Below, in pieces: positions 29,691-35,999 of a DNA stretch of 64,000 bases. The notes below the pieces were generated by a model. That model was given only the letters and a program-made list of their open reading frames with translations. It ran no database searches and had not been told where the DNA came from. The translations under genes were made by a program, and so were the position numbers. Position 1 is the first letter of the stretch. Each line of letters starts with the position of its first letter. Where the stretch lies: assembly GCF_020217425.1 (NCBI RefSeq), contig NZ_CP084090.1, forward strand, positions 2,046,001 through 2,110,000, given 5' to 3'. The DNA is from Halomicrobium urmianum. GTDB lineage: Archaea; Halobacteriota; Halobacteria; Halobacteriales; Haloarculaceae.

Positions 29691-30334
29691 TCGAAATGAA
29701 ATAGACTAGAAGAGAGAGTCTAGACAGAGTGCCCTCACACACCACCTTCGAAATGAAACGCTGGCGGCGGGAGTCAAATCTAGCTCGCTAATGCGGTAAA
29801 ACGGGTGAAAGCGAGCGATCGTGGCGTACGGTCGACGAACTTCATTTCGATACCGACGTCTCTCGAAGCGGTACATCCGTCGCGGCCGTTCCCCGGTGGC
29901 GGGTCTTCGAATTTCATTTCGAAAAAGGGGTCTGAGGGCTTACGGATCGAATCTCGACTCGGACGACAGATCATTTCGATACCGGTGTCCTCATTTCGAA
30001 GCCGGTCGGAGCGAACTGGCGTCCTCTCTCTATAGTAGAAATTGAACGCACTGACACGCTCGAGGGGCACTCGGGGTGCCCCTCGATGTGTAAATAGTTT
30101 CAATTTCTACTATAGAGCAGGTCCGAGAACTGCGACCGCGCCGCGGCGAAGTTCATTTCGATACCGGTGTCCTCATTTCGAAGTCGGTCCGAGACGTGTT
30201 GATATCTCCCACGGCCACGACCGTGGCCGTTCTCCTCGACAGTCGCACCACGGTGGCGCCACGGGTCATTTCGATATCGGTGTCCTCATTTCGACATTCC
30301 CCCATTCATTCCGACAGACCCTGGATCATATCGA
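29691..30334. repeat. Array of twelve TCATTTCGA boxes, partly 20-bp phased
   Basis: Boxes (9 bp) on the plus strand start at 29842, 29914, 29971, 29991, 30153, 30173, 30266, 30286, 30306 (TCATTCCGA) and 30326 (TCATATCGA); two on the minus strand lie at 29691 and 29748. Spacing within clusters is exactly 20 bp: 29971/29991, 30153/30173, and 30266/30286/30306/30326. Between paired boxes the spacer TACCGGTGTCC is conserved. The last box ends just before the orc1 TATA box (about 30341). Confidence 0.85.
30030..30115 (+). mobile_element. MITE-like palindromic element, copy 2 (most intact)
   Basis: An 86-bp element with terminal inverted repeats CTATAGTAGAAATTGAA and TTCAATTTCTACTATAG and a central hairpin CGAGGGGCAC-TCGGG-GTGCCCCTCG. 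If the real termini are TAGTAGAAATTG, each end is flanked by TA, as in Tc1/mariner-like elements. No ORF. It lies within the box array of the candidate origin. Compare copies at 12902-12984 and 57289-57367. Confidence 0.8.
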
Positions 30335-30340
30335 CAGAGG

Positions 30341-30349
30341 TTATAGGGA
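30341..30349 (+). promoter_or_regulatory. TATA box of orc1/cdc6
   Basis: TTATAGGGA begins about 32 nt upstream of the start codon at 30373. The 20-bp-phased boxes run right up to it, so Orc1 binding there could repress its own gene; this is inference. Confidence 0.5.
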
Positions 30350-30372
30350 CTAGTTTGCAACGGACGATATCA

Positions 30373-31710
30373 ATGGGAAACGGCGCCGAACCAACTCACG
30401 CCGGGGACGACGAGGCGTCGTCGCCGTCGGAGTCGTCCGTCGTCGACAGCATCCTCGACGGGGAGGCACAGACGGTTTTCAAGAACAAGGACCTCGTCGA
30501 TCCGAACACGATCGTCGACCAGGACCGGATCTACGGTCGAGACGAACAGTTAGCCGCCGAAGCCCGCGCGTTCCGCGACACGCTAGAGGGGGAGCGACCG
30601 CCCGATCTCCTGCTGTACGGGCCGAGCGGTACCGGGAAAACGCTGACCGTGAAGGCGGTCGCGAACAAGGTCAAGCAACGGGCCGAACAGGAGGACATCG
30701 TCTTCGACTTCGTGGCGGTGAATTTCAAGACGATGGAGTCGCACACCCTCGATCGTGCCGTCTGGAAACTGGGCTATCAGACGGCGCAAAAGGCCGGTGT
30801 CGTATGGGACATCCCGCGCAAGGGCGTCTCGACGGACGCGAAGTACGTTCGCCTCTACGAGATCGTCGACGAGCACTTCGATTCGCTCGTCTTCATCCTC
30901 GACGAGATCGACGCGCTCACCGGGCACAAGAACGAAGACGAGCCGGCGTACTCCCGGCTGCTGTACAGCCTCAGCCGGGTCATGGCCGAACAGCACGTCG
31001 ACACGCTCATCTCGACGGTCGTCGTCACGAACTACCCCAAGTTCCGCGAGAACCTCGACAGCCGGACCGACAGCTCCTACAACCCCAACGGGATCCACTT
31101 CTCGGACTACGACGCGAACGAACTGATCGAAATCCTCGATCGGCGTCGTGACGCCTTCAAGGAAGACGCGCTCGAAGACGGCGTCATCGAACTCGTCGCC
31201 GCCTACGGCGCGCAGAACGAGGGCGACGCCCGGCGTGCGATCGACCTGCTGCGCGACGCCGGGGAGATCGCGAACCGGGACGGCGATTCGAAGGTGCGGG
31301 AAGACCACGTCCAGTCCGCCAACGACTCGGTCGTCAAAAACCGCGTTCTGGAGATCGTCGGCGGGATGTCCCTCCAGAAGAAGCTCTCCCTGTACGCGGC
31401 CGCGCTGGTTGCCGACGTGAACGACGGAGCCGCACCGAGCCCCGTCGTCTACCGGGCGTACAGGACCATCTGTAAGATGTCCGACCGGGAGATCTACACG
31501 CAGGAGACCGTCAACAGCCACATCAACAAAGCGGGCACCTACGGCGTCCTCGAGAGCGAGCGGACGAGCAGCGGATACAAGTCGGGCGTCCACCTGCTCT
31601 TCGAGTTCAACGAGCCCGTGGATGCCGTCCTCGAGACCATCGAAGACGACAGCGCGTTCGACGACATCGAGGCCGAGGCGGTCCGCTCGATGGCTGCGAA
31701 GGCGCTATAG
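30373..31710 (+). CDS. orc1/cdc6: Orc1/Cdc6 replication initiator
   Basis: A 445-residue AAA+ initiator. Walker A is LLLYGPSGTGKTLTV, Walker B is LVFILDEIDAL, sensor 1 is VVTNYPKFRENLD, and sensor 2 lies in QNEGDARRAIDLLRDAG. The C-terminal winged helix (about residues 335-420) includes LYAAALVADVNDGAAPSPVVYRAYRTIC. It binds origin repeats and loads MCM. The ATG at 30373 fits the family; the open frame upstream to 30196 reads through the repeats. Haloarchaea usually carry many paralogues, each tied to its own origin. Confidence 0.95.
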   Translation: MGNGAEPTHAGDDEASSPSESSVVDSILDGEAQTVFKNKDLVDPNTIVDQDRIYGRDEQLAAEARAFRDTLEGERPPDLLLYGPSGTGKTLTVKAVANKVKQRAEQEDIVFDFVAVNFKTMESHTLDRAVWKLGYQTAQKAGVVWDIPRKGVSTDAKYVRLYEIVDEHFDSLVFILDEIDALTGHKNEDEPAYSRLLYSLSRVMAEQHVDTLISTVVVTNYPKFRENLDSRTDSSYNPNGIHFSDYDANELIEILDRRRDAFKEDALEDGVIELVAAYGAQNEGDARRAIDLLRDAGEIANRDGDSKVREDHVQSANDSVVKNRVLEIVGGMSLQKKLSLYAAALVADVNDGAAPSPVVYRAYRTICKMSDREIYTQETVNSHINKAGTYGVLESERTSSGYKSGVHLLFEFNEPVDAVLETIEDDSAFDDIEAEAVRSMAAKAL

Positions 31711-31757: not shown

Positions 31758-31779
31758 CGGGCGGCGAGGGATTTGAACC
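31758..31779 (-). other. tRNA-Arg 3'-end duplication (att-like scar)
   Basis: The sequence GGGCGGCGAGGGATTTGAAC plus flanking C's (22 bp) is identical to the 3' end and T-arm of the tRNA-Arg gene (31871-31892) 113 bp away. Archaeal integrases recombine at tRNA 3' ends and leave such copies. No integrase gene was seen nearby. The scar lies 48 bp past the orc1 stop. Confidence 0.65.
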
Positions 31780-31870
31780 ACGCCCAGACGTGCTCGCTAC
31801 GCTGCGCGCGACTGGTCTACCTCAAATCCTCGGGCCGCTTTCGCTCGTCACGTCCGTTCCTCGCAGAAAG

Positions 31871-31943
31871 CGGGCGGCGAGGGATTTGAACCCCCGACCA
31901 TCTGGTCCGGAACCAGGCGTTCTGTCCGCTGAACTAGCCGCCC
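31871..31943 (-). tRNA. tRNA-Arg (anticodon CCG)
   Basis: Read on the minus strand: acceptor stem GGGCGGC/GCCGCCC, D-arm GTTC...GAAC, anticodon loop TTCCGGA giving anticodon CCG (reads CGG arginine codons), and T-arm GGGGGTTCAAATCCCTC with the conserved TTCAAAT loop. Length is 73 nt with discriminator G, no intron and no encoded CCA. The first anticodon-stem pair is C-A, one mismatch. Confidence 0.92.
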
Positions 31944-32808: not shown

Positions 32809-33018
32809 ATGGCGACTATCGAGTGCTGCGTCAACAGCGTCGACGCCGCCAGCCGCTCCCGGCTGGCAGAGTACGGTTCGGTCCGGGGCGACCGCTGCCT
32901 GGAACACTGCGAGACCTGCCGGCACGGTCCCTGCGTCGTCGTCGACGGGGACCTGCTGACGGGCATCGAGGCCCTCGAAATGGCCGTCGCGGCCGCGACG
33001 GGCGGTGATCCGGCGTGA
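32809..33018 (+). CDS. DUF1450 family protein
   Basis: A 69-residue protein starting MATIECCVNSVD with four further Cys (CLEHCETCRHGPC), matching the short DUF1450 (YuzB-like) family, probably metal-binding. Its stop overlaps the GTG of the sulfatase gene by 4 bp (GTGA), so the two genes are coupled. Function is unknown. Confidence 0.85.
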   Translation: MATIECCVNSVDAASRSRLAEYGSVRGDRCLEHCETCRHGPCVVVDGDLLTGIEALEMAVAAATGGDPA

Positions 33019-35302: not shown

Positions 35303-35999
35303 GGCGGTGTTCAGATAAGCTTGAAAGGTGAGGCGGATGGGGTTTTTAGTGCTCTATGCCAAAAACCGACCGCCTCAACGGTTGTTTGGACCAGATCGAG
35401 TTAGAGTTTGTGGAGCGAGAAGCGACACCGCGATTGCTGATGAAGCTCAGTATTCAGCTGCATCTGGCTGGACTCTCGCTTTCGAATACTGTCTCGTTTC
35501 TTGAGGTATTCGGTGTCCAACGCGCTCGGTCAACCGTTCACAACTGGGTTCACAAAGCCGATCTACAGCCCCAGGATGGGCGAGAACCGGATCACGTCGC
35601 GGTCGACGAAACCGTGATCCAACTCGATGACGAGCACTACTGGCTGTACGCTGCCGTCGATCCAGACACGAACGAATTACTCCATACACAGCTTGAACCG
35701 ACCAGAACAAACGTTCTCGCTCGTGCGTTCTTCACCGAGCTCCGCGAGAAACACGATGTCGACGACGCCGTCTTTCTCGTCGATGGTGCGACACCGCTGA
35801 AAGACGCCTGCCAGCGACACGGCCTCGATTTCAGATATGAACGCCATGGAAATCGAAACAGTGTCGAACGTGTCTTTCGAGAAATAAAACGACGGACATC
35901 TTCGTTCTCAAACTGCTTCAGCAACGCCGAAGCGGACACAGCCGACGACTGGCTCAAATCGTTCAGCTTCGCATGGAATCAGCTAATCTGAACACTACC
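35303..35999 (+). mobile_element. IS6-family insertion sequence, copy 2 (697 bp)
   Basis: Same length and ends as copy 1, here in the opposite orientation. The perfect 8-bp target duplication GTGTGGCG is at 35295-35302 and 36000-36007. It lies between the DUF1059 gene's promoter region and the 3' end of the 6-phosphogluconate dehydrogenase gene. The different duplication from copies 1 and 3 shows it inserted independently. Confidence 0.95.
35356..35991 (+). CDS. IS6-family transposase
   Basis: A 211-residue intact transposase, almost identical to copy 1, with the same DDE residues (DETVIQLDDE, FLVDGATPL, SVERVFREIKRR). The ATG at 35356 follows the TIR by about 40 bp. Probably active or recently active. 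It could supply transposition functions in trans for the disabled copy 3. Confidence 0.95.
   Translation: MPKTDRLNGCLDQIELEFVEREATPRLLMKLSIQLHLAGLSLSNTVSFLEVFGVQRARSTVHNWVHKADLQPQDGREPDHVAVDETVIQLDDEHYWLYAAVDPDTNELLHTQLEPTRTNVLARAFFTELREKHDVDDAVFLVDGATPLKDACQRHGLDFRYERHGNRNSVERVFREIKRRTSSFSNCFSNAEADTADDWLKSFSFAWNQLI

Follow-up and report, generated by a model that had tools for sequence, protein, structure and literature searches.

A phased box array upstream of an orc1/cdc6 gene of Halomicrobium urmianum: a candidate Orc-specific origin, probably acquired laterally

What is a dense and regularly spaced array of short repeats doing directly upstream of an orc1/cdc6 gene in the haloarchaeon Halomicrobium urmianum: does it serve as a replication origin for that initiator, does it control the initiator's own expression, or does it do both? 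From the 64,000 nucleotides that were analysed (hereafter, the window) and from related loci in other haloarchaea, we consider it probable, at roughly 0.7, that the locus is a laterally acquired replicator-initiator pair, i.e. an Orc-specific candidate origin with built-in autoregulation. This reading builds on the array itself, its conservation with one Orc clade, the presence of two box classes, the position of the array relative to the promoter, and selection on both boxes and gene, from which we predict that Orc binds the boxes, that MCM is loaded, that the origin fires, and in which direction the gene is regulated.

The array and the element that it repeats

The array is intergenic, lies directly upstream of the orc1/cdc6 gene and comprises twelve TCATTTCGA boxes at 29691-30334, ten on the plus strand and two on the minus strand, of which ten are perfect and two carry one mismatch. 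Eight of the boxes are set in steps of exactly 20 bp (29971/29991, 30153/30173 and 30266/30286/30306/30326). The first-pass annotation had reported these boxes, and its count, strands, mismatches and coordinates were all reproduced, with the 20-bp spacing exact at every pair and run that it had named. The features of the locus are as follows.

29691-29699 and 29748-29756, minus strand: cores of two outward-facing ORBs, both perfect, with G-rich tails GGTGTGAGTGGGG and GGTGGTGTGTGAGGG in the minus-strand reading
29757-29841, no strand: spacer of 85 bp separating the inverted boxes, a candidate unwinding element
29842-29850 and 29914-29922, plus strand: perfect cores of two single ORBs, the second with a full G-string (TTTCATTTCGAAAAAGGGGTCTGAGGG)
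29968-30011, plus strand: box pair at 20-bp spacing (perfect cores starting at 29971 and 29991)
30028-30117, no strand: MITE-like palindrome inside the array
30150-30193, plus strand: second box pair (perfect cores starting at 30153 and 30173), 93% identical to 29968-30011
30266-30334, plus strand: promoter-proximal run of four boxes in exact 20-bp steps, perfect at 30266 and 30286 and with one mismatch at 30306 (TCATTCCGA) and 30326 (TCATATCGA); the proximal ones are without a G-string
30338-30346, plus strand: TATA-like element AGGTTATAG, immediately 3' of the last box and about 30 bp before the ATG
30373-31710, plus strand: orc1/cdc6 initiator gene (445 aa, AAA+ and winged-helix)
31759-31778, plus strand: exact 20-bp copy of the 3' end of tRNA-Arg, an att-like scar
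31870-31943, minus strand: tRNA-Arg(CCG), 3' end toward the orc gene

Across the window, 21 matches to the box were found at no more than one mismatch, against 6.7 +/- 2.65 expected, and none of 100 shuffles reached 21. The ten perfect boxes fall within 732 bp, for which a first-order Markov model predicts between 0.001 (background) and 0.014 (the region's own composition) and yielded at most one perfect box in 2000 trials. Boxes equally frequent elsewhere in the genome would have spoken against the origin reading, as the first-pass annotation had pointed out; instead, ten of the 21 perfect copies in the whole 4.25-Mb genome are located in the array, and the other eleven are scattered singles. 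Within the window, the sequence 3' of the array holds a single one-mismatch box inside the orc gene (31007) and another at 32975.

Alignment of 68 boxes from seven loci revealed the 9-mer to be the core of a longer ORB of about 20 bp, TTCATTTCGA-N4-GG(G/T)GTG, in which a T precedes the 9-mer and four variable bases separate it from a GG(G/T)GTG tail, found at +13 in the majority of the family's boxes. Many boxes in Halorubrum, Haloquadratum, Haloarcula and Natrialba take the form TTTCATTTCGA-NNNN-GGGGTG; in the window, a full AAGGGGT follows the box at 29914, and a degenerate CCGGTGT tail many of the others. A halophile G-string of this kind is what defines haloarchaeal ORBs (Wu et al. 2012, PMC3528665), and oriC1 of Haloarcula hispanica requires it (PMC3936714). 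The earlier impression that the usual haloarchaeal ORB motif is missing and that the boxes are unusually short therefore has to be given up: the core is indeed another one, as each Orc family has its own, but most of the family's boxes carry the tail and the element extends to about 20 bp.

The tail also distinguishes two classes of box. Among related loci, whose counts are not independent, the G-string follows 25 of 33 minus boxes and 71 of 114 other plus boxes, and none of the last two boxes before the gene. After the second-last box comes a C-rich stretch, whereas GG and then a TATA-like TTATTA or TATTA follow the last one.

Also identified within the array was a strongly foldable 90-bp palindrome (30028-30117; CTCTATAGTAGAAATTGAA...TTCAATTTCTACTATAGAG) with 30-bp arms that are 83% complementary. 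It sits between box clusters, leaves the boxes intact, is absent from the arrays of relatives, and occurs in about 85 genomic copies on chromosome and plasmid contigs; it belongs to a MITE-like or REP-like family and is a mobile insert rather than part of the array. Comparison with the Natrialba array suggests that the extra pair at 30153/30173 is probably a duplication.

Conservation with one Orc clade and lateral transfer

The encoded protein scores 354 bits against TIGR02928 (cut-off 181), possesses Walker A (GPSGTGKT) and Walker B (LDEIDA) motifs, and aligns over nearly its full length with the Cdc6/Orc1 chains 2qby_A and 2v1u_A, which we take to be DNA-bound structures of origin-binding proteins. 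The genome carries about a dozen Orc genes, and the contig on which the locus resides, 3.36 Mb long, is presumably the main chromosome. Phylogenetic reconstruction placed the Orcs that are preceded by these boxes in one clade (support 100/100); the paralogous clade closest to it contains initiators of plasmids, pHmuk01 among them. Within the boxed clade, the window's Orc is sister to the Natrialba taiwanensis protein, against the host phylogeny; since the two hosts belong to different families, this points to lateral transfer. A search of same-genus genomes did not find the orc gene.

The orc neighbourhood corresponds to a variable region beside tRNA-Arg(CCG), which was the only Rfam match on the locus and, with the att-like scar, is the likely integration site. 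Two further observations were made in the vicinity. The tRNA-Arg(CCG) region is also present in a same-genus genome (G002) lacking the orc, marking an integration hotspot, and a reading frame a few kb from the orc locus (35356-35991) resembles, by eye, an IS6-type transposase.

Orthologues with 75-90% identity were found in Natrialba, Halorubrum, Haloquadratum, Haloferax and Haloarcula, and the array lies upstream of all 18 of those taken from GTDB contigs. In a sample of 392 Halobacteriales genomes, 30 possess an orthologue; the array precedes each of the 29 with at least 75% identity, including one at a contig edge that shows the last four boxes only. The thirtieth, at 62% identity, is preceded by a related CCATTTCGAAAACGGTGTG box; four copies on the minus strand and at least two on the plus strand surround a stretch of 67% A+T, an arrangement of inverted boxes that matches textbook origin anatomy. 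Perfect boxes paired at 20 bp were found in 34 of these 392 genomes, against none for a reversed-pattern control. Upstream of the paralogous orc loci tested the array was absent, with at most one perfect box, and the other orc genes examined in the same genome have their own, different boxes. One of these (L006 1384-1420, contig C2) presents the box GCTCGTGAA head to tail every 9 bp, followed by TTTATAG, and may be another orc promoter into which boxes are packed.

The boxes thereby follow one Orc clade through about 15 genera and have changed along with the Orc in the 62% relative (CCATTTCGA), a linkage-specific pairing of Orc clade with ORB sequence that bears out the earlier proposal of an Orc-specific element. 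The order of components is constant, with two minus boxes, a spacer, single plus boxes, and exact 20-bp clusters ending at the promoter. Members of the minus pair are 54-57 bp apart in nearly all orthologues, the relatives counted hold 7-15 boxes per array, and by far the commonest spacing is exactly 20 bp (69 intervals at 16 loci). Compared with Natrialba, the boxes are 98% identical and the remainder of the array 57%, and differences between the orc genes lie mostly at third positions (dN 0.05, dS 1.7; dN/dS about 0.03). This box identity, together with the low dN of the gene, indicates that the pair is, or until recently was, strongly constrained. An 840-kb contig carrying only this Orc (G208:C3) was considered as a replicon with the family member as its sole initiator, and was discarded as the contig is possibly incomplete.

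Phased boxes lacking an orthologous Orc were identified in nine genomes of the sample. In one (G339; L257, 9820-10210), array and promoter are intact and the orc gene is reduced to its last 38 codons, which reads as a clear deletion that would leave an origin bereft of its initiator. Orphan triplets at 20-bp (or 30/20-bp) spacing were found in L251, L252, L255, L256 and L258, in each case at about 10 kb into the locus, some flanked by GAAGCGAGGTGTG-like repeats or followed by GCTAGCCGGCTAGC, and two with integrase-like genes nearby. Among the neighbourhoods of the orphan arrays no gene recurred beyond three loci, and the orphan boxes may be relics or docking sites. Viral contigs yielded no orthologous Orc, and three of them carry a phased pair of no clear relation.

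Origin, promoter and competing readings

In nearly all orthologues, the start of the last box lies 43-49 bp upstream of the ATG, and the box abuts a TATA-like element (GGTTATTA or GGTATTA) situated in between. Leaderless transcription is established in haloarchaea, and the TATA-to-ATG spacing fits leaderless transcripts. Initiator boxes were found to abut or overlap the promoter at a kept position, as expected of an autoregulated promoter, and the overlap of array and promoter is well supported. Since the BRE/TATA region is abutted or overlapped by the last box, rising occupancy of the array would make Orc a repressor of its own gene; the autoregulation envisaged by the first-pass annotation thus gains backing from the kept position of the last box and the adjoining TATA-like element.

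With respect to replication, several of the marks by which orc-adjacent origins were recognised in Wu et al. 2012 were found here, among them an intergenic, orc-adjacent position, inverted, repeated ORB-like elements, and an ORB sequence paired with its own Orc clade. We propose that the Orc most likely recognises TTCATTTCGA-N4-GG(G/T)GTG, and that the distal inverted G-string boxes would constitute the origin, where Orc would bind, MCM would then be loaded, and the duplex would open. The 20-bp-phased boxes would align Orc molecules on nearly one helix face toward the promoter, and bound Orc, on reaching this leaderless promoter, would cover the BRE/TATA region. Filling of the array may in this way lower orc transcription, a DnaA-like feedback.

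The length of the spacer between the inverted boxes is kept (82-84 bp in many relatives, 85 bp in the window). Its A+T content is slightly raised in the window (42% vs 37% in the orc gene), reaches 60-65% in Natrialba and most Halorubrum, and gives way to a GC-rich spacer in other GC-rich hosts; an AT-rich spacer was accordingly rejected as a general feature, being inconsistent between relatives. Near C1:2.04-2.08 Mb, cumulative GC/AT skew, derived from the chromosome sampled in 20-kb blocks, passes through a weak local maximum instead of a minimum. Its amplitude is low throughout, with no signal at the orc with the canonical ORB (2.37 Mb) either, so skew was set aside as an origin test. The weak skew maximum, the 42% A+T spacer, the inserted palindrome and the CCGGTGT tails were nevertheless counted against the origin reading. 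As a separate observation, the sampled cumulative skew, for GC and AT alike, reaches its lowest values at about 3.16-3.21 Mb (G000:C1; L015, L016), near a divergent Orc-like AAA+ frame (3211766-3212791), a region that possibly marks a main origin or the terminus.

In its present host the origin may be secondary or dormant. Taken further, this becomes the alternative of a dormant or decaying origin, which worked in the donor replicon and here, interrupted by the palindrome, is silent in normal growth. It overlaps our preferred reading, from which it differs only for this host, and we hold it possible, if on the unlikely side. The insert at 30028-30117 and the extra box pair, neither seen in relatives, would suit such decay, as would the GC-rich spacer, the unsupportive skew, and the recently acquired dormant origins documented in Haloferax mediterranei (PMC4595724). 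Decay is harder to reconcile with the box conservation and dN/dS relative to Natrialba, and with inserts that lie between the box clusters and leave the boxes undamaged.

More speculatively, the array might work as a single continuous switch, in which G-string ORBs would nucleate an Orc filament that spreads through the phased G-less boxes into the promoter, coupling licensing to initiator shut-off; the solitary phased triplets in genomes without the Orc would then be docking sites through which other elements respond in trans. We regard this elaboration as doubtful.

We judge it unlikely that the array serves chiefly in regulation or titration, controlling Orc expression and free Orc level like the ORB-rich oriC2D of Haloarcula hispanica, with replication starting elsewhere. 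In that species, 11 ORBs in 722 bp titrate Cdc6E (PMC3936714) and two inverted ORBs suffice for a minimal oriC1, far fewer than the 7-15 boxes of the present family, whose arrays moreover extend into the promoter with proximal boxes devoid of a G-string. However, simple autorepression has no role for a distal inverted G-string pair or a spacer of kept length, and the classical origin anatomy of the 62% relative and the plasmid initiators of the nearest paralogous clade likewise argue for our origin reading over titration.

Repeated, helically phased boxes abutting a TATA element would also suit an unrelated transcription factor that controls orc1, with the Orc itself not binding. We consider this quite improbable, in view of boxes that accompany a single Orc clade from genus to genus and have altered along with it, that are reduced to a stray single copy at most near paralogues, and that bear an ORB-like G-string tail. 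Chance or low-complexity clustering, for which no supporting point was found, is refuted by the expected box counts given above and by conservation across genera.

Comparison with known systems

Among the papers listed by a literature search for the 9-mer, none dealt with a haloarchaeal origin, and the one match with a haloarchaeal cdc6 was a primer only. One family member lies on a contig that we take to be the chromosome of Haloterrigena turkmenica, a genome analysed in 2012. This Orc/ORB family may therefore already be listed in Wu et al. 2012 (PMC3528665), and we do not claim it as a new kind of origin; the array adds a well-preserved member, unusually regular in its layout, to a type that is already established. 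Haloarchaea are known to have orc-adjacent origins whose ORBs are specific to the Orc family, and both the lateral spread of such origins and dense clusters of ORBs have been described in them (PMC3528665, PMC3936714, PMC4441112). The locus resembles the origins of Wu et al. 2012 in its inverted G-string ORBs directly upstream of orc, its Orc-family-specific ORB, and its placement in a variable region, those origins lying in variable regions or plasmids and moving laterally; it differs from them, as they are described there (PMC3528665), in the 7-15 boxes of the relatives counted, its strict 20-bp spacing, and extension of the array into the orc promoter. With the canonical archaeal oriC1 ORB (TTACTGGAAACGNTGGGGTGGGG in the same genome, L001) it shares a conserved core followed by a G-string, although the core is another one and the orc locus of that ORB (C1:2.374 Mb) belongs to another Orc lineage.

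The oriC2-cdc6E/oriC2D region of H. hispanica (PMC3936714) is similar in combining a dense ORB cluster beside cdc6 with control of initiator dosage. Its additional, titrating cluster is however located downstream of cdc6E, whereas here the array is upstream only and reaches the promoter, with no separate ORB cluster downstream of the gene. Like the dormant oriC4-cdc6H of Haloferax mediterranei (PMC4595724), the locus would be a recently acquired Orc/ORB pair on a main chromosome, possibly silent in the wild type; H. mediterranei was absent from the orthologue matches, and nothing places cdc6H in this Orc clade. A link to the double origin at Hwa_HQ2959A was also considered and rejected, the published second ORB being unmatched beside orc in the Haloquadratum-like loci examined.

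Taken together, these analyses delineate a single Orc/ORB family, present in at least 30 haloarchaeal genomes, whose architecture is very regular and whose boxes are 98% conserved in otherwise diverged DNA. Its regular layout, two box classes and promoter overlap make it a good system for investigating initiator-origin pairing, and for asking how a chromosome that already possesses other origins integrates, silences or loses an imported one. The proposed working is also like that of bacterial oriC-dnaA, where initiator boxes occur both in the origin and in the promoter of the initiator gene; initiator and boxes are non-homologous between the two, and the family offers a means of asking whether in archaea, as with DnaA in bacteria, synthesis of the initiator responds to how far its boxes are occupied.
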